From: a virus
DNA: 21,429 nt
Direction: 5' to 3' (one strand)
Virus record (IMG/VR): IMGVR_UViG_3300048549_000892
Location: 1-21,429 of that record
The notes below the pieces were generated by a model. The model was not told where the DNA came from. It ran no database searches and saw nothing but the letters and a program-made list of their open reading frames with translations. Shown here in pieces: positions 3,303-18,633 of this stretch. The translations under genes were made by a program, and so were the position numbers. The stretch's first letter is position 1, and the number at the start of each line of letters is the position of its first letter.

Positions 3303-4673
3303 CTATTCAGTCACCTCATCTTTATAGGCGGCATCTGGGTCTTCAGGGTTCACCTGAGCTACCCCCTGCAACTGAACGGATGGAAGACCAGTGTGACCAA
3401 TCGCAGGCAGTCCAATCATCTCCATCGCCTCAGCAGGGTCAAATCCAGCGAATACAAGGTCACGCACCATTTGAATCTTCTCTCGCTGCGCTTTTACTCC
3501 AGACTCCGACAGATTGACGTTAGCTAACGGTACACGAACCGCACTCGCGGCATCGCCCTCTTGGGGAGCCAAATCTTCCAAACGCCTAACATCATTGATT
3601 GCTAAGAATCCAGATTGCAGACCTGTCGAATATGCACTGAATCGGCTTTGAATATCTGCCCTGAGTAACCCGTTCATGTTGAATTTGATAAACGCTTCAG
3701 AGCCTCCAGGATAACGCGACATCAAAGAACTCATCGCATCTTCAATCTTGGTCACATAAGGTCGCAAAGTGTGTGTGACGAATCCGAGCATGTTCTGTTC
3801 CACGCTCGAATAAGTGTTAGTTCCAGGGAGGTTCAGCAAGAATGACGGAATACGAAAAATCCGTGCAATGTCTTCCACTGCCATTCTGCGAGCCTCAAGT
3901 GCCTGAGAAGTCTCAGGGTCAGCCTGTGTTGCTTTGAAACTAGCACCACCACTCAAAACACCTGTGCGACCTGACTTTCTCCAACCCTTATGTGACTGGT
4001 CGAAAGATGAACGCAAAGAATCTGCCTGCTCTTGAGTTAGCGCTCCAGGATATTCGATAACACCATGCAAAGTTGTACCTTGTCCGAAAAACGTAGCCGC
4101 ATACAGCTCAAGCGCTTTAGATAGACCCAGGTTCTCACGCAAAGCAACCACACGCGACACGCCACGAACAGTTCCAGGGCGTAGAAGGTCAGGGATATAA
4201 ATAACCTGCTCTGAAGTGAGTGGCCTATCTTCACCCTGCACTGTGAAAATTAGCGCACCCTCAGCGTTCCGTTTTATCTCAACATGAGAAGGATTGAGAA
4301 CGACTAGGTTGATAACCTCACCGCGCCGATTACTGAAAACTCTAATGAAACCGTTGCCGTCAATCAGCATCGAAACTAGAAGACTGTTATAGAACACGGA
4401 ATGCCCATTGAAGTTCATGTCGGGCTGACCAACCCACGTTGGTTTCGGTCTAAACGGCCTACGGTTCCCATCGTCACGGATGAAAACATCAACTGGCAGA
4501 GTCGAAACAGTGTCCGCTATCAAAGACACTGCCGAATGTAACGCGGCAATCGTTAGCGCGTTATCTTCATCAATTCTTGTGCCAGATTGATTTCCGACAC
4601 CGATATCATCGCCAGACTCAAAGATTGTCTGAAACGAGATGGCCCTATCTTCCCAAAGTCTGTTGAATACCAA
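3303..4673 (-). CDS. Portal protein (HK97 family)
   Basis: At 456 aa this has the length and pattern of HK97-type portals: an N-terminal AALHSAVSLIADTVSTLPVDV segment near residues 44-64, the WRKSGRTGVLSGG block near 231-243, and an EDIARIFRIPSFLL motif near 268-281. The portal forms the dodecameric ring for DNA entry and tail joining and binds the terminase. The start codon is TTG (4673-4671): no ATG or GTG lies in frame before the conserved region, and GGGGA sits about six bases upstream. The TTG directly follows the TAA of the 42-aa gene, so translation is probably coupled. The C-terminus is acidic and likely flexible. Confidence 0.93.
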   Translation of the reverse strand: MVFNRLWEDRAISFQTIFESGDDIGVGNQSGTRIDEDNALTIAALHSAVSLIADTVSTLPVDVFIRDDGNRRPFRPKPTWVGQPDMNFNGHSVFYNSLLVSMLIDGNGFIRVFSNRRGEVINLVVLNPSHVEIKRNAEGALIFTVQGEDRPLTSEQVIYIPDLLRPGTVRGVSRVVALRENLGLSKALELYAATFFGQGTTLHGVIEYPGALTQEQADSLRSSFDQSHKGWRKSGRTGVLSGGASFKATQADPETSQALEARRMAVEDIARIFRIPSFLLNLPGTNTYSSVEQNMLGFVTHTLRPYVTKIEDAMSSLMSRYPGGSEAFIKFNMNGLLRADIQSRFSAYSTGLQSGFLAINDVRRLEDLAPQEGDAASAVRVPLANVNLSESGVKAQREKIQMVRDLVFAGFDPAEAMEMIGLPAIGHTGLPSVQLQGVAQVNPEDPDAAYKDEVTE

Positions 4674-4809: not shown

Positions 4810-6333
4810 CTATCCAAAAAATTCTGGCACTGGGTCTAGTTTAGCGCCTGTTAGTGCGCGGTCTACAGCAATCACCATCGCAACCGCCGCATCTATCTTT
4901 CTAGGGCTATTCCTTGAGTCTTTCACAATGCGTGGCCCCATGTTGTCAATCTTAGTTACCGCATTGCTCAAGTGCCTAGCAAGAATCGGATTTCCGTCAT
5001 GGATAAGACGTGACTCAGTGACCACATCAAAAACTTTCGAACAAGCTGGAACCATACGCCGAGCTGAAGTGCTCGGATATTCCACGATAGGCACACCCCT
5101 ATCTTCCAAAACCTGCATGGAACGCTGCCAGCGGAAAGGGTCGCACGCAACCTCACGGACTTTCGGGTGAGCTTGACAGAAATCCAACACGGTTTGCTCT
5201 ACCTCAGCAATATCAACCCTCCAGTCATCATCATGGATAGTGACATCTTTCTCCCACGCCTTGACAAGAAAAACTTTCACCGGTTCATCATCTTTTGGAA
5301 CAATCGCACCCACAATGACCGAGGCATCTCCAGAGAACGAACCGTCAAAACCAAGCACTATCTCATCATCAGGTGAAATCTCAAACGGTTGCTGGCACGC
5401 CTCCCATGTCCCCGTTGGAAGCCACGAAGTTTGAGAGGACACCCACTGATTACATCGTTTAGTTCTAAACTCTGCTTCCGGTGTACGTTTCACGGCACTC
5501 TCGAAATCGCTTTCAGCGTTGAGGTCATTGAATCCAGGGTTAGCTATCGCCCATGTTGCAGGGTCACGGTGATCAAGTTCCTCTGGCGCTTCCCACGCAG
5601 CCATGAAAAAAGTTGGGTCATTTATTTCACCGCGAGCGACCTTCTGCCCATACTGATAAAGACTGTAGCAAATCGAATCGCGACCTGTGGAATCCATCTT
5701 CACCCCAGCAGTTGAAATCGCTATCAGTGTCGCTAGCTTCCCCCGCGCACCCATAGCCAAAGAAAAAGTGTCGTAAAGATCGCGATTTTTCTGAGCGTGC
5801 AACTCATCAAACACAGTCATCGTAGGAGACAAGCCCTCTTTCGAATAAGCCTCAGCAGACATCACACGATAAACAGAATTCAACTTAGGCAGCTCAATCG
5901 CATCTCGGTAAAGCTTCGTGATAGCAGTAAGCTCAGCGCTTGCCTCAATCATTCTCTTAGCATCCGCAAACACAATCCGAGCCTGCTCTTTCTCAGCTGC
6001 CACACTATAAACCTCCCCACCGGCAGAACCCAACACCAATCCATATAAACCAATAACAGAACCCAGGGCACTTTTACCATTTTTTCTCGGCATCAAAATG
6101 AGTTGTGATTGATGACGAAAACCGCCATCTTCCCTAGCGAACATATGTTCTAAAAGTGACTTTTGCCAATCCCGCAACACTAACGGTTCGCCCGACTTTC
6201 CTGCAACCGTATCCTTCGTGATAATCCCGAAAGCTTCAGCGAAATCTATTACAGGCTCACTAGCTTGACCGCGCTCAAGCGCATCAACGGGGACAGCAGT
6301 AAGCCATCTTGGAGGCCAACTGCTATCCGCCAT
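4810..6333 (-). CDS. terL: Terminase large subunit
   Basis: At 507 aa this has both terminase domains. The ATPase carries a Walker A PRKNGKS (residues 82-88) and a Walker B MTVFDE (172-177). The RuvC/RNase H-like nuclease has candidate metal ligands in GFDGSFSGD (Asp330), ACDPFRW (Asp398) and KIDAAVAMVIA (Asp481). It cuts concatemers and pumps DNA through the portal. I chose ATG 6333, which overlaps the end of terS by 11 bases with AGGG six bases upstream; a longer frame to 6378 is open but would overlap terS far more. Both catalytic centres seem intact. Confidence 0.95.
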   Translation of the reverse strand: MADSSWPPRWLTAVPVDALERGQASEPVIDFAEAFGIITKDTVAGKSGEPLVLRDWQKSLLEHMFAREDGGFRHQSQLILMPRKNGKSALGSVIGLYGLVLGSAGGEVYSVAAEKEQARIVFADAKRMIEASAELTAITKLYRDAIELPKLNSVYRVMSAEAYSKEGLSPTMTVFDELHAQKNRDLYDTFSLAMGARGKLATLIAISTAGVKMDSTGRDSICYSLYQYGQKVARGEINDPTFFMAAWEAPEELDHRDPATWAIANPGFNDLNAESDFESAVKRTPEAEFRTKRCNQWVSSQTSWLPTGTWEACQQPFEISPDDEIVLGFDGSFSGDASVIVGAIVPKDDEPVKVFLVKAWEKDVTIHDDDWRVDIAEVEQTVLDFCQAHPKVREVACDPFRWQRSMQVLEDRGVPIVEYPSTSARRMVPACSKVFDVVTESRLIHDGNPILARHLSNAVTKIDNMGPRIVKDSRNSPRKIDAAVAMVIAVDRALTGAKLDPVPEFFG

Positions 6334-6781
6334 CCTCAACCCTGTTCGCGTTCGCCTTACGTTGCATGAGTTCCTCAAGTTTCGATTGAGTCTTCACCTC
6401 AGCCAAACCTAAACGTGATCGATCTGAAGGCGTGAAGCCTAATAAACCTAATGAGGTCTGAATAAGCTTCTCCGTCTCCAGCAAAGACATGTTTATCTTG
6501 CGCTCAGTTGGATCAGCTAAAAATTCTTTTCGTAGAATCTCGCGTCTATCCAAAAGCTCACAAACCATTTGCAGCAACTGAGTATCAGTGCGAGAACTCA
6601 CCCACAAACCGCCAGCCTCAAACACCTCAGACCAAAGTTGCGCCCCAGCCTCACCTAACGGCCGCAACGGTTCCCTGTATCCACCTTCAATCTGCATCAA
6701 CGCACCCTCTCCAGGCATCGCACGTTTACCAGGATTTCCTAGCTTGCGTTTCATTTCAATCGGCTTCGCAGGATTTGGCAT
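6323..6781 (-). CDS. terS: Terminase small subunit (P27 family)
   Basis: This 152-aa protein has the P27-type pattern: an N-terminal KPIEMKRKLGNPGKR basic stretch, a central helical region (about 40-105), and a C-terminal LGFTPSDRSRLGLAEV motif (near 113-128). TerS binds the packaging site and regulates TerL. ATG 6781 gives the family N-terminus; its ribosome site is unusual, since a GGGGG run sits only one base from the ATG. It follows a 240-base non-coding stretch that is a good candidate for the packaging recognition site. Confidence 0.88.
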   Translation of the reverse strand: MPNPAKPIEMKRKLGNPGKRAMPGEGALMQIEGGYREPLRPLGEAGAQLWSEVFEAGGLWVSSRTDTQLLQMVCELLDRREILRKEFLADPTERKINMSLLETEKLIQTSLGLLGFTPSDRSRLGLAEVKTQSKLEELMQRKANANRVEDGG

Positions 6782-7023
6782 ACCCCCTAGAGTACCCCAA
6801 ACCTTTGAAATGCGGGTATCTGCAATATTGTGGGCTACGGGGTGCTCTGTCTAGCAAAATCGATGTTTTGACCCAGTCTGTATAGATGCCGGTGGGGGGG
6901 GTGGGGGGTGCCTAAGGTGGGGATGTGGCGTATAGGTCGTGTTGTTGTTATGAAAAATACTTGCCTATGTGGTGGTGGGGTAGTGGTGTGGTGGTGTGGT
7001 GTTCGCAATCCTCATGGCTACCC
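6782..7023. other. Strand-asymmetric non-coding gap upstream of terS; candidate packaging site
   Basis: This is the longest gap in the window. The plus strand carries G8-T-G6 (6894-6908), GGGG (6919-6922), then a GTGG/TGGTG-rich tract (6967-7000), with almost no runs of C. Similar GTGGTG units recur and could be TerS-binding repeats, and the G-runs could form a quadruplex. The gap lies between an HNH nuclease gene and terS, where cos sites of many cos phages are found. On the minus strand a 16-codon frame (7015-6965, MRIANTTPPHHYPTTT) has an AGGGG site five bases upstream, but its low complexity follows from the repeats and I do not call it a gene. No convincing terS promoter is seen. Confidence 0.4.
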
Positions 7024-7359
7024 CTATGTTTGTAACGGTTTGTTACCCCTTGATTGATTACAAAATGAATGAGTTATTGCTAATGGTGAATCCATGTCGG
7101 ATGGTGTCAGATGGTCTGCTTGACCTGTGCCTGGTAGTACGACCTCCCCACACAGGTAGCAGATACCCCCCAGGGATACTAATAAGTTTCTGCGTTTGCG
7201 ATATTGAGAATTGTATAGGGTGGCCTTCTTGAGTTTTCGGGAAGGGTCAGCATCGCGCTTTCTATCGCGTATCCGTTCACTGGCCTTGTGGCAATCGTCA
7301 CATTTGTATTTACGGGATAAGACACCGCAGTTTATACAAGGCTTGTTGAAGCCGGTCAT
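7024..7359 (-). CDS. HNH endonuclease next to terminase
   Basis: This 111-aa protein has an N-terminal zinc knuckle (Cys8, Cys11, Cys20, Cys23), a basic linker (RDRKRDADPSRKLKK, about 31-45), then an HNH domain with CYLC (Cys67, Cys70), the catalytic-type ADHL (His83) and a C-terminal HSFCNQSRGNK (97-107). HNH proteins next to terminase, such as HK97 gp74, are known to be needed for or to stimulate cos cleavage; that role is inferred here from position. ATG 7359 is chosen because it forms an ATGA overlap with the upstream stop; a TTG at 7377 in frame has no ribosome site. Confidence 0.85.
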   Translation of the reverse strand: MTGFNKPCINCGVLSRKYKCDDCHKASERIRDRKRDADPSRKLKKATLYNSQYRKRRNLLVSLGGICYLCGEVVLPGTGQADHLTPSDMDSPLAITHSFCNQSRGNKPLQT

Positions 7360-11022: not shown

Positions 11023-12331
11023 CGCCATCCCCAACCTGTTCGCTTGCCCACCGTAACCTGCCCTCAATAATCGGCAGATACTCCTCTGTCAATTCAACAC
11101 CCACAAACTCGAACCCGTCAAGTAATGCTGCTTTACCTGTAGATCCTGAACCCGTGAACGGATCAAGAACTGTCCCCCCAGGTGGTGTGACCAGTTTGAT
11201 CAGGTAGCGCATGAGTGCTGTAGGTTTCACTGTAGGGTGGAAGTTTTCTCTGACAGGGTGATTTGTGGGTTTGCCTTCGCGATATTCTGCCCCATTCATA
11301 GAACCGCCAACACGCGCCTCCAGCTCCTCTAGTCCTTCATTCCGGTCACGCTTAGAAGCCTTAGCCACATAGAAAAAGCGTGAAGCCCCACCAGAATCGT
11401 CAAAACCGCGTTCAGAAGTAAATCCAGCGTGGCTTTTCCGCTTCCATCCTTCATGACTCCCTTCTACTGTCATGGAACCCATAAGTGACCGCTTACTTAC
11501 GCTCACTCCACTCTGCTCATCAAGTAGCCCTGCGGTGTGCTCGTCAAGGATCACATTCGCAGGCCACCTTCCGGCAGCGTGAGGCTCAGTACCAGGATGT
11601 GCTGTAGGTTCACCCATCAAACCATTAGACCGCCCACTATTTGCCTTCGCTGGCACGACAGGATAAGAACCGGCAATCCTGCAAGCATCAATGTTCAACC
11701 CACCCACACCCCACTCCAACACATTCTCCGCTACAGTCCCCACCAACGGTTTCCGCCCCACCACAACCGGTTCATGGGCAGGCTTCAACGCAGTACCCCA
11801 CCCCTCCCACTGTTGTGCTTCAGAAGTTGCAGGGGAAGTTAGGTCAAAAGTTCTAACGCCATTTTCATCAGCCTTTGACGAATCTTGCCAACCTCCGTCA
11901 TCCACTTGCCAATTACCTTTCCCAATTTGCCTTGACTGTTGCCCAACAACCTCACGCTCAGCCCCAGCCCGCTTATCTATCGCCTTAGACACATCCAACG
12001 ATTTAGGAAAACCACTGCCATAAATCCACGAAATATTATCCCTAATCTCGAAGCCAGCATCCTCAATCGCAACCGCGAGCCTGTGCCAAGTTCTCGATCC
12101 ACCAAACGCCAAAATATGACCTCCAGGTTTCAACACGCGCAGACAATGCATCCATAAATTCACATCGTAAGCAATGCCACTAGAATCCCAACCCTTCCCC
12201 ATGAATCCAAGCTCGTAGGGTGGGTCAGTCACTATAGAATCCACCGAGTTATCCGGAAAGCCCTCCAAGACCTCACGACAGTCACCAAGAAACACCTGAG
12301 CACCATCAATATTTATTTGTGGTTTGATCAT
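11006..12331 (-). CDS. DNA N6-adenine/N4-cytosine methyltransferase, large
   Basis: This 441-aa protein has the catalytic TDPPYELG (DPPY 36-39) near the N-terminus, a long middle region (about 90-330) that should hold the target-recognition domain, and the SAM-binding DPFTGSGS (390-397) followed by FVGVEL near the C-terminus. This order defines the beta class. Near residues 355-375 it also has HPTVKP, typical of such enzymes. Its product would be a modified base in phage DNA that blocks host restriction. ATG 12331 forms an ATGA overlap with the stop of the replication gene. No cognate nuclease is visible, so it is an orphan. Confidence 0.92.
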   Translation of the reverse strand: MIKPQINIDGAQVFLGDCREVLEGFPDNSVDSIVTDPPYELGFMGKGWDSSGIAYDVNLWMHCLRVLKPGGHILAFGGSRTWHRLAVAIEDAGFEIRDNISWIYGSGFPKSLDVSKAIDKRAGAEREVVGQQSRQIGKGNWQVDDGGWQDSSKADENGVRTFDLTSPATSEAQQWEGWGTALKPAHEPVVVGRKPLVGTVAENVLEWGVGGLNIDACRIAGSYPVVPAKANSGRSNGLMGEPTAHPGTEPHAAGRWPANVILDEHTAGLLDEQSGVSVSKRSLMGSMTVEGSHEGWKRKSHAGFTSERGFDDSGGASRFFYVAKASKRDRNEGLEELEARVGGSMNGAEYREGKPTNHPVRENFHPTVKPTALMRYLIKLVTPPGGTVLDPFTGSGSTGKAALLDGFEFVGVELTEEYLPIIEGRLRWASEQVGDGDVTLF

Positions 12332-13062
12332 TTGCACCCAAACTCTCCGACACGGCATTCAAAATGCTCACCCATGTCATGCATCTTTTTCACCCATAAC
12401 CGAGCTTGAGGTAACTCAGCAGCAGGCTTGACCCCTGGAATCTTTTTCAAATCAGGTTCAGGGTACGGGTCATCAGTCCACCGTTCCTGATTCAACCAGG
12501 TGGCAGCCCTCGGAATGAACTGGCTTGCTGGCAGGTGAGGGTCATTAGCTAAGCGTTTCACGCCATCCATGATGACTTCAGGCCCATGCTTTTTTACCGC
12601 TTTGGCAAATGCACCCCTAGCTTCACCCTTACCTAGCTTCCTAGGGAAGACATTCCAAAATTCATTGAATAACGAACTTAAGTTAAGTGGTTCTAGTTGA
12701 GTGGTTCTAGTTAGGTCATCAGTGGTGCTAACCCCCCTCATCATGGGTGATGACCCCCCCTCATCATGGGTGATGACCCCCTCCGACATTTTCAAAGTGT
12801 AAACTAGTGAACTATTGTGACGCTGTTTCTTAGTGATCGCACCAAGGCGGAGCAGCTCATCTGTAGCCCTATCCACTGAGGCCTTCGAACACACCATCTT
12901 CTCTGCAAGAGTCTCACGAGACGGGAAAGCCTCATGGGTTTGATTATCAGCAAAGCGACACAACACACAGTAAAGCCTGACTGCCTTATCCGAAATCTGG
13001 GCATAAGTAATCCACTCAGGGATGATGCTGAACCTAATCTCAGCAGTCAAACGCTGTTCCAT
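12328..13062 (-). CDS. Replication initiator / helicase-loader-like protein (winged helix plus C-terminal domain)
   Basis: This 244-aa protein has an N-terminal winged-helix domain (about 20-90; AFPSRETLAEKMVCSKASVDRATDELLRLGAI, quoted here as PSRETLAEKM and KASVDRATDELLRLG), then a linker (95-130), then a C-terminal domain with FNEFWNVFPRKLGKGEARGAF and FIPRAATWLNQERW (131-195). The pattern is that of phage replication proteins of the HTH_36 and DnaD-like type, which bind an origin and recruit helicase. The linker-coding DNA carries repeats (12675-12781) that look like an origin. ATG 13062 has AAAGGTGG six bases before; a GTG at 13071 is less likely. It overlaps the methyltransferase start. 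Confidence 0.8.
   Translation of the reverse strand: MEQRLTAEIRFSIIPEWITYAQISDKAVRLYCVLCRFADNQTHEAFPSRETLAEKMVCSKASVDRATDELLRLGAITKKQRHNSSLVYTLKMSEGVITHDEGGSSPMMRGVSTTDDLTRTTQLEPLNLSSLFNEFWNVFPRKLGKGEARGAFAKAVKKHGPEVIMDGVKRLANDPHLPASQFIPRAATWLNQERWTDDPYPEPDLKKIPGVKPAAELPQARLWVKKMHDMGEHFECRVGEFGCK
12675..12781. repeat. Iteron-like repeats inside the replication gene; candidate origin
   Basis: Two exact copies of the palindrome TCATCATGGGTGATGA (12738-12753 and 12761-12776) lie 23 bases apart, each bordered by C-runs of 5-7. Two copies of AGTGGTTCTAGTT (12686-12698 and 12700-12712) lie 14 bases apart, next to the perfect palindrome AACTTAAGTT (12675-12684). Neither period is a multiple of three: the first pair is read as VITHDE and SSPMMR, so the DNA, not the peptide, is conserved. 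This is the layout of lambda ori inside gene O. Confidence 0.6.
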
Positions 13063-13076
13063 GATTTCCACCTTTT

Positions 13077-13421: not shown

Positions 13422-14114
13422 CTAACGCCATCCAATTTCAGAACCCTTGATGACCTGACTCTGGGCCAAAATTGGCAACGGATCAACAACCTGCCCATCA
13501 ATATGCAGCTCGAAATGGAGGTGCGGCCCTGTAGATATCCCAGTGCTACCGACAGCCCCAATGGTCTGACCTCGCTCAACTATTGCCCCGACATAAACCC
13601 CAGCAGGTATCGAACCCCTCTGCAAGTGTGCGTAAATCGTTTCCCAGCGCTCAGGATTTGATTGTTTCACTGGCACGATATGTTCGATCTTGACCCAGTA
13701 TCCATAGCCTTCATTCAAGCCAGAAGCGACAACAATCCCTGGTAAAACCGACATCACAGGCTTTCCCTCCCCTGGAATGAAATCAACGCCTTGATGATCG
13801 CTCGAACAGGCTTTGCATGGCGCAATCCTCCACCCAAAATCACTTGATATTTCAGGGTCATGGACTGGCAGGATAGCTTGAGCATAGTTATCAAAATTTG
13901 GCCTGCTTATTTCTTGCTCAAACTGACTTGAAACAAACACGCTTGTATCAACTTCTGTCGCTATGTCATAGGGAGACTGTTGATTACTGATGTCAGCACC
14001 CGAACCGGAAAGATTGACAGGGGAATCAAACGTGACCAGCATCGGCAGGAACAAGTAAGCAAAGATGATCACCGTTTGGGTACTAACCTGTCTTTCTTTC
14101 AAGACTCGCCACAT
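13422..14114 (-). CDS. Membrane-anchored or secreted M23 peptidase
   Basis: This 230-aa protein has an N-terminal hydrophobic helix (about 12-30, VIIFAYLFLPMLVTF) that would act as signal anchor, a polar stretch (31-80), and an M23 (LytM-type) domain with HQGVD (His107, Asp111), YAHL (His163) and PHLHFE (His198, His200). All Zn and catalytic positions are present, so it should cleave peptidoglycan cross-bridges from the outer face of the membrane. Its place among replication genes, away from the endolysin cassette, is odd. ATG 14114 overlaps the stop of the coiled-coil gene by one base. It has no cleavable lipobox that I can see. Confidence 0.88.
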   Translation of the reverse strand: MWRVLKERQVSTQTVIIFAYLFLPMLVTFDSPVNLSGSGADISNQQSPYDIATEVDTSVFVSSQFEQEISRPNFDNYAQAILPVHDPEISSDFGWRIAPCKACSSDHQGVDFIPGEGKPVMSVLPGIVVASGLNEGYGYWVKIEHIVPVKQSNPERWETIYAHLQRGSIPAGVYVGAIVERGQTIGAVGSTGISTGPHLHFELHIDGQVVDPLPILAQSQVIKGSEIGWR

Positions 14115-15977: not shown

Positions 15978-16232
15978 ATGAGCAACGACCCACACCGGCC
16001 CTATTCCAAACTCATGCACTCAGTTGATGCAGTAGAAGAAACGCCTTGTATGGGAATGCCAGAGGTATTCTTTCCTGAAGACTTCCCCCACAAAGAGGTG
16101 AAGGCTTGTGCCGTCTTGGTTGCTCGCCATCTTTGTAACACCTGCCCAATCAAACGTGAATGTTTTGAGTACGCGACAGAACGAGGTGAGCCCTACGGCA
16201 TATGGGCTGGCACGTTACCATCTGAACGCTAA
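15978..16232 (+). CDS. whiB: WhiB-family transcription regulator
   Basis: This 84-aa protein has the four-Cys [4Fe-4S] ligand set Cys24, Cys53, Cys56, Cys62 (C-x28-C-x2-C-x5-C), preceded by an acidic N-terminus, and then the GxWxG turn as YGIWAGT (73-79), where GVWGG is usual. The basic tail after the turn, normally used for DNA contact, is short here. WhiB proteins act with sigma-A RNA polymerase. The phage TM4 WhiB is known to down-regulate host whiB2, block septation and exclude superinfection; the same role here is possible but inferred. The gene is in opposite direction to its neighbours, overlaps the 59-aa gene by four bases at the 3' end, and seems leaderless. Confidence 0.93.
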   Translation: MSNDPHRPYSKLMHSVDAVEETPCMGMPEVFFPEDFPHKEVKACAVLVARHLCNTCPIKRECFEYATERGEPYGIWAGTLPSER

Positions 16233-16893: not shown

Positions 16894-17103
16894 ATGATGA
16901 TAACTAATGACCTAGAAGCAGAGAGAGAAACGCTAGACCAGCTTGCCGATAAACGGGCATGGCAGCTTGAGCGCCTCGACAAGATACAAAGCCAACTCAA
17001 AGAACGGGTAATTGAGGCTTATAGAGATGGCGAATCAATCCAAAGCCTAGCGAAACGAGCCGGTGTTAGCCGAGTGACGGTTTATTCATGGGTAGGTGAA
17101 TAA
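16894..17103 (+). CDS. Small helix-turn-helix regulator
   Basis: This 69-aa protein has an N-terminal coiled-coil-like stretch (about 5-45, heptad-like Leu/Ala in LDQLADKRAWQLERLDKI) and a C-terminal helix-turn-helix, IQSLAKRAGVSRVTVYSWVG (residues 49-68), of the type found in resolvase-like and transposase-like HTH domains. A dimerising coiled coil with a single HTH suits binding to a palindrome. It lies opposite the leftward operon, with a shared operator-like palindrome between them, and is followed by a strong terminator, so it is a monocistronic regulatory gene. That it binds the palindrome is inference. Met1 (16894) or Met2 (16897) could be the start; the -10 spacing fits Met1. Confidence 0.8.
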   Translation: MMITNDLEAERETLDQLADKRAWQLERLDKIQSQLKERVIEAYRDGESIQSLAKRAGVSRVTVYSWVGE

Positions 17104-17666: not shown

Positions 17667-17899
17667 CAAACCAACCTCACAATCAATGGCATTGCTGCCG
17701 CTAGTAATCCAAACACCCCAACAGCCCAACCCATACGCATCTCAAGCTTGCGGATACGCTGTTCGTGATCATCAATCTTTGCTTCTGAGTCTGGCAGCTC
17801 AGCTGCAAGTTTCTCAAGCATCGACTGAATTTTCTGCACCTGCATATAAATATCTTTCATTGATACCTTCACAACGCTTGTATCTGTATTTTCAGGCAT
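17666..17899 (-). CDS. XhlA-like coiled-coil membrane protein
   Basis: This 77-aa protein has a long coiled coil (about 15-50; IYMQVQKIQSMLEKLAAEL, then HEQRIRKLEMRM) followed by one membrane helix at the C-terminus (WAVGVFGLLAAAMPLIVRLV). The HEQRIRKLE block and the overall form match haemolysin XhlA-type proteins of phage lysis cassettes, which associate with the membrane and cooperate with a holin. ATG 17899 overlaps the endolysin TAA as TAATG. Confidence 0.72.
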   Translation of the reverse strand: MPENTDTSVVKVSMKDIYMQVQKIQSMLEKLAAELPDSEAKIDDHEQRIRKLEMRMGWAVGVFGLLAAAMPLIVRLV

Positions 17900-18633
17900 T
17901 AGCAGTCACCGGCTTGCTTATCGAACCATTTTTCGTCATTCAAAGACCTCTGGAGCGCCCTGTACGTGATTTTTCCCCACACACCATCAACAACATCGAT
18001 GTAGTAATCCCAAGCCTTCAGCTGCGCTTGTACGGCTTTACGAGTTTGTGGCCCCATAACACCATCAACAGGAACGCCCACCGCTCGTTGGATCGCTTCA
18101 TAAGTCCACTTCCCAGGCTTACCATCCACGCGGCCCTTGTAATGCCCTGCAGAGGCTAACTGGGTCTGCCACGCCCTCCAAGTGTTTTTACCCATACGAC
18201 CATCAACACGAAGGGCAGAATTCGCACCAAGATTATTTGCTACAAGATATGGCTGTGGGTCTACTTGTGTCCCCCATGCTCGGCTAGTTCTCACTTCGAA
18301 GTGGAGGTGATCGCCGGTACTCGCTCCCGTGTTACCTGACATGCCAATTCGAGTATTTATATCCACCCTGTCACCCTTACGAAGGTGAGTTTTATATTCC
18401 AAGTGATAATACACAGTGTGAATATCGCCATGGTCCAATATGACCACATGCCCCCCACCTTGAGGACTCCAGCCAATATGAGCCACCACGCCTGCTGCGG
18501 CTGCTGTCACTGGAAATCTCCCAGCTACATCTACGCCCCGATGTAATTTTCTTGTTTTGGAAATCGGATGGATACGATAACCAAATAAACTCGTGATTTT
18601 GTTTGTTACAGGCCAAGGATTTACGAGCCTCAC
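17899..18633 (-). CDS. Endolysin: M23 peptidase with peptidoglycan-binding repeats
   Basis: This 244-aa protein has an M23 domain (about 10-130) with HRGVD (His31, Asp35), YYHL (His77) and DHLHFE (His109, His111), followed by three short peptidoglycan-binding-type repeats, each with VDGxxG...T..A.Q (143-156, 169-205, 215-231). It should cut peptide cross-links and bind the wall. No signal peptide is present, so release needs the holins encoded next. The start is GTG 18633, overlapping the fibre gene TGA as GTGA. The catalytic residues seem complete. It is distinct from the anchored M23 protein of the replication region. Confidence 0.92.
   Translation of the reverse strand: MRLVNPWPVTNKITSLFGYRIHPISKTRKLHRGVDVAGRFPVTAAAAGVVAHIGWSPQGGGHVVILDHGDIHTVYYHLEYKTHLRKGDRVDINTRIGMSGNTGASTGDHLHFEVRTSRAWGTQVDPQPYLVANNLGANSALRVDGRMGKNTWRAWQTQLASAGHYKGRVDGKPGKWTYEAIQRAVGVPVDGVMGPQTRKAVQAQLKAWDYYIDVVDGVWGKITYRALQRSLNDEKWFDKQAGDC

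Follow-up and report, generated by a model that had tools for sequence, protein, structure and literature searches.

A likely theta replication origin within the linker-coding DNA of the initiator gene in an uncultured virus of a probably actinobacterial host

The DNA analysed in this study, hereafter the window, is a virus record of 21,429 bases that carries terminase, portal, recombination and WhiB genes. Since the WhiB gene points to an actinobacterial host, the virus is probably an actinophage; a search of genome contigs for prophages and hosts returned no relatives. The WhiB gene and a small helix-turn-helix (HTH) gene are located on the plus strand (15978-16232 and 16894-17103), while nearly all the other recognised genes are on the opposite one. 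Two genes encode M23 peptidases (13422-14114 and 17899-18633), and one of the pair belongs to the replication region, where it lies two genes upstream of the initiator gene described below. The terminase genes occupy positions 4810-6781, and G-rich short repeats (GGTGGGGGG and GTGGTGGT) are found at 6891-7002, near the genes that precede the large terminase gene. The GC skew is inverted over these G-rich repeats (+0.24 at 6751-7250), which possibly represent a packaging site.

The gene of interest is encoded on the minus strand, at 12328-13071, starts with either a GTG at 13071 or an ATG at 13062, and has a product of 247 amino acids. In a Pfam scan, the protein matches HTH_36 (1.8e-13), and most of its length (aa 4-211 of 247) matches phrog_270, annotated as "replication initiation protein" (6.1e-41), with a further match to phrog_9327, "primosomal protein", at aa 124-204. 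The AlphaFold2 model comprises an N-terminal winged helix-turn-helix domain, presumed to bind the iterons (aa 19-93, minus strand 12793-13017, pLDDT mostly 74-94), a linker predicted to be disordered (residues 98-127), and a C-terminal helical domain, presumed to recruit the helicase (aa 131-194, minus strand 12490-12681, pLDDT about 90). According to fold comparison, the N-terminal domain is a MarR/CRP-like winged helix whose best matches, at Z 9-10, include the plasmid initiator structures 4pql, 4pt7 and 5kbj; 4pql (Z 10.1) and 4pt7 (Z 9.9) are tied by riboflavin kinase and many ordinary winged helices. Sequence searches of the PDB with the protein, both as a single sequence and as a profile, gave no credible match. 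On its family matches, we consider that the gene encodes a winged-helix replication initiator. The gene directly downstream encodes a DNA methyltransferase. Of the proteins scanned in the window, none was recognised as a helicase, a helicase loader or a lambda P-like product, in a record that may be a fragment.

The linker-coding DNA of this gene contains two identical units of 23 nt (12732-12754 and 12755-12777). Iteron 1 (minus strand, 12761-12776) has the form TCATCA-N4-TGATGA, with its dyad centre at 12768.5, and adjoins a G run on the coding strand; iteron 2 (minus strand, 12738-12753, centre 12745.5) equals iteron 1 inside the 23-nt unit. An earlier note made from the letters of this stretch had placed a pair of exact 16-base palindromes in the linker-coding part of the gene. 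The location agrees with the predicted disorder of residues 98-127, and the two units are indeed identical, but the claim of exactness was rejected from the sequence, as TCATCATGGGTGATGA consists of 6-bp arms, TCATCA and TGATGA, around the asymmetric, non-palindromic centre TGGG. Both iterons counted in that note are present; a third, degenerate one had been missed (minus strand, about 12716-12731, centre 12723.5, 74% over 23 nt). The spacing between centres is therefore 22 and 23 bp, and the whole array extends over 12716-12781. It is the top-scoring tandem repeat of the window, in which a search allowing up to three mismatches found no further iteron sites (0 expected), and the tandem score of the gene (L035 in our set) reaches 27, whereas the best of 300 codon shuffles that preserve the protein scores 20.

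A second element, which we call element II (minus strand, 12688-12712), is formed by two copies of AACTAGAACCA at 12702-12712 and 12688-12698, and the dyad centre of the last iteron lies 11.5 bp from it. The reported pair of 13-base repeats with period 14 is confirmed here, as the exact 13-mer AGTGGTTCTAGTT occurs at 12686-12698 and 12700-12712. The two copies of element II are read in two different codon frames, and neither of the repeat periods, 23 and 14, is a multiple of three, from which the earlier note had argued that selection acts on the DNA. The codons of element II show this directly: its columns are near-invariant in the alignment of relatives, and at positions where the residues agree between relatives less than 65% identical, 97% of its codons are identical against 31% expected, compared with 35% against 33% for the HTH domain. 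A scan of viral contigs with the DNA of element II as the only query gave 48 matches, and all 48 lie inside an initiator reading frame, right after the repeats. Repeats containing AGAACC also follow the linker repeats in two distant relatives, L121 (Arthrobacter phage Laroye) and L124 (Vibrio phage D173), hinting that the core of element II may be widespread.

Element II is embedded in DNA of low stability (12633-12713, no strand assigned, about 37% GC), which reaches the 99th percentile of the window in a nearest-neighbour energy scan and is a candidate unwinding region; A+T-richer sequence next to the repeats had been noted before. The palindrome AACTTAAGTT, also mentioned then, is present at 12675-12684; it is not kept in relatives, so it is probably incidental and was dropped as a part of the origin. 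The cumulative GC skew, which had been proposed as a check, does not turn at 12633-12781. Nearly all genes lie on one strand; the skew is uninformative as an origin marker in this window and cannot support the proposal.

The viral contigs retrieved by protein searches encode initiators that are about 30-100% identical to that of the window, and dozens of the related viruses keep the same layout within the initiator gene. Matches to plasmids are weak and mostly partial. Loss of the repeats in close relatives with a conserved initiator, the outcome that the earlier note had named as speaking against an origin, was looked for and did not occur. In relatives at about 40-65% protein identity, the repeats are found at the same place and with the same period; their sequences differ, and the arms change together. 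The repeats in the linkers of relatives are of 22-23 nt and mostly combine a G run with a dyad, as in GTCACCAGTGAC, GACACCAGTGTC, CTGACACAGCTGTCAG and GCGACAAAAACGACC. Of 41 non-redundant relatives, counting the window gene, 24 score above every one of 300 shuffles that preserve the protein, with the repeats almost always at aa 91-125. In a further group only a few shuffles match the score, while several relatives, mostly distant (e.g. L048, L082, L084, L089, L109 and L111), have no significant tandem signal in this test. One contig, L007, differs from L003 in that the first G run of its linker is one G short (4281-4330), which produces a frameshift and stops; this is either a sequencing error or a broken copy of the initiator at a contig end.

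Position and phasing are likewise conserved. When 31 non-redundant linkers were anchored at element II, the lag autocorrelation peaked only at 22-23 (0.46 and 0.40, compared with about 0.25), and symmetric positions paired better within than between phages around three centres, -11.5 (z 7.0), -33.5 (z 9.2) and -56.5 (z 5.5), which are those of the three iterons of the window. As within-phage pairing exceeds between-phage pairing, the arms of the dyads change together, and this covariation is stronger evidence for the dyads than the symmetry measured phage by phage, which is modest (mean z 1.0). A group of relatives (L055, L056, L059, L066, L068, L078 and L079) has direct repeats that keep the period without a strong dyad, so the binding of a dimer to each dyad may not be general.

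These data bear on two alternative explanations. Tandem repeats could arise by slippage in an unconstrained linker and have no function, and the predicted disorder of the linker and the slippage-prone nature of G runs agree with such an origin; we nevertheless give this explanation practically no credit, since it is contradicted by the covariation of symmetric positions between phages, by a period of 22-23 and a phasing that stay constant across diverged sequences, and by the 97% codon identity of element II. Alternatively, the dyads could fold into hairpins once transcribed and so regulate the translation or decay of the mRNA. Some of them could make short stems, and the linker of L006 folds better than shuffled sequences (z -1.8); however, the fold z values of five linkers are +1.0 (window), +1.1, -1.8, 0.0 and +2.3, so that four of the five fold no better than shuffled, several dyads would leave a loop of only 2 nt (GTCACCAGTGAC), and the group of direct repeats without a strong dyad retains the period all the same. 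A role in the RNA is therefore very improbable.

The iterons vary together with the domain that presumably binds them. Iteron similarity tracks the identity of the HTH domain (Spearman 0.41, a value reached in none of 1000 permutations), whereas its correlation with C-terminal identity is 0.02. HTH and iterons are thus inherited together, and the type of iteron appears to go with the type of HTH domain; the two segments are adjacent in the gene, an arrangement in which linkage alone would also make them covary, so linkage contributes to this correlation and is inseparable from specificity here. The C-terminal domain follows a different course. In some phages it is 83-97% identical while the HTH domains are below 60%, and in the pairs L159/L165 and L141/L159, which have unrelated HTH and iteron modules, DNA identity begins precisely with element II and continues through to the C-terminal module, which indicates that element II is a point at which modules are exchanged. 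Conversely, L050, L053, L067, L069 and L071 have another C-terminal domain (FVDFHTAKGSVFK...W) and keep the HTH domain, the iterons and element II.

The exchange breakpoint at element II in L159 versus L165 and L141 versus L159 would also agree with a cis-acting site of another kind. The segment could be a joint for recombination, serve partition or packaging, or confer self-immunity in the manner reported for an element within the bstA defence gene. We regard this as quite unlikely, given that a mere joint does not need phased and covarying iterons, that packaging sites are usually near the terminase genes, here at 4810-6781, and that the protein belongs to a replication-initiator family. Somewhat less remote, and still improbable, is the explanation that the repeats serve as operators, bound by the HTH protein to regulate transcription of its own gene or of downstream genes, no origin being involved. 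A MarR/CRP-like winged helix and sites in the form of dyads are what such a regulator would have, and initiators often autoregulate as well, so that operator and origin roles can coexist. Nonetheless, the sites lie about 300 nt past the start codon, deep in the coding region, and transcriptional control would leave unexplained their fixed phase to a near-invariant element of low stability, the replication-initiator family of the protein, and the neighbouring genes in relatives: genes for a helicase and a single-stranded DNA-binding protein (SSB) come after the initiator gene in cultured Gordonia phages, and a gene for a DnaB-like helicase does so in Brevibacterium phage Rousseau.

Considering all of the above, the segment 12633-12781 is very probably the theta replication origin of the phage, lying within the stretch of the initiator gene that codes for the linker, as judged from sequence comparison. 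The earlier proposal of a lambda-O-like origin in this gene is thereby supported, among other things by the retained place and period of the repeats and by the synonymous-codon conservation of element II. In the mechanism that we infer, the winged-helix domain would bind the three iterons, probably as one dimer per dyad, at distances of 22-23 bp that correspond to about two helical turns, and would so build an O-some-like complex whose phase to element II is fixed. Melting of the low-stability DNA that surrounds this element would follow, one strand of element II would be recognised by a conserved factor, either the initiator or a protein of the host (DnaA, SSB or DnaB, for example), and the C-terminal domain would recruit a helicase of the DnaB type. 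Covariation suggests the step of the initiator on its iterons, while melting and helicase recruitment are proposed by analogy and from gene context.

The constancy of element II deserves an explanation of its own. It is kept with every combination of HTH and C-terminal domains seen, which suggests that it is read either by something conserved within the system or by a factor of the host. Within each 14-nt copy, one strand reads TnnTnnTnnT and the other 3'-CAA-GAT-CAA-5', somewhat like DnaA-trios; the former contains the motif TnnT, which DnaD binds in the Bacillus DRE (PMC10201434). A speculative idea, to which we assign a low probability, is that element II is a strand-specific, single-stranded signal of the kind found in bacterial oriC and used here by a phage. 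It would then be read by a factor present in all hosts or by a portion that the initiators share, and this would account for an element II that remains near-invariant while iterons, HTH and C-terminal domains change, and for the exchange of C-terminal domains at that point.

New here are the anatomy of the origin across the family, an element II that hardly varies, and the exchange of C-terminal modules at it; searches of the open-access literature found neither these actinophage origins nor element II described before. For a large group of phages that are uncultured and probably actinobacterial, the likely origin has been located by sequence alone, and element II offers a 25-nt signature with which the origin can be located in contigs. 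The natural variety of HTH domains, each with its own iteron, makes the specificity between initiator and iteron testable by swaps, and an element that stays near-invariant amid such change suggests that some step of recognition is conserved when the origin is opened or the helicase is loaded.

Lambda and the lambdoid phages are known to have their origin inside the initiator gene (PMC7466680), and an in-gene origin was earlier suggested for the repA genes of mycobacteriophages (PMC7157519). The lambda origin and the one proposed for the window both occupy the middle of the initiator gene, where it codes for the linker between the DNA-binding and the C-terminal domains, and low-stability DNA (0.28 GC in lambda) comes right after the iterons, on the C-terminal-coding side. 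The order of HTH, iterons, low-stability DNA and C-terminal domain is that of lambda O; in the same shuffle test on the lambda record, O scored 15 against a maximum of 13 (0/300), at the known iterons. There are differences as well. The annotation of lambda shows four imperfect dyads in tandem, at intervals of 20-24 bp, where the window has three iterons beside G runs. The second element of the window is a specific and conserved 14-nt repeat, and no counterpart of the lambda helicase loader P is recognised beside its initiator. The two proteins have no close sequence relation, the family of lambda O being phrog_277 and that of the window initiator phrog_270; they meet only through weak matches to O-like profiles, among them phrog_391 and phrog_678, partly over different regions.

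Among cultured actinophages, the related initiators of the Arthrobacter phages Cupello, Juno112 and Marchesin and of the Gordonia phages Vendetta and TinaLin contain in-gene tandem repeats that exceed all 200 codon shuffles. Their sequences are unrelated to those of the window; the period is 22 in the Arthrobacter phages, with a second array of GAACCGTCC repeats right after, and 11 in the Gordonia phages. The best family of the Vendetta protein is phrog_2447, and phrog_270 matches only at its C-terminal part. In the open-access papers that we found, these repeats are not called origins; as the phages are cultured and have the same layout, they allow bench tests.

Two further systems resemble the window by their published descriptions. 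In oriL of the Bacillus phage SPP1, gp38 binds direct repeats in its own gene 38, with an adjoining AT-rich unwinding element (PMC6316719); SPP1, however, carries its own loader gp39 and helicase gp40. In the plasmid pSK41, the Rep boxes are central in the rep gene, the N-terminal domain of Rep binds them, and the middle of the protein is a linker (PMC5703833). A Pfam scan up to E 1 gave no RepA_N match in the window initiator and the fold matches are tied, and for these reasons we claim no kinship with pSK41 Rep. By analogy, the best reading of the window system is that it works like ori-lambda, SPP1 oriL and pSK41.
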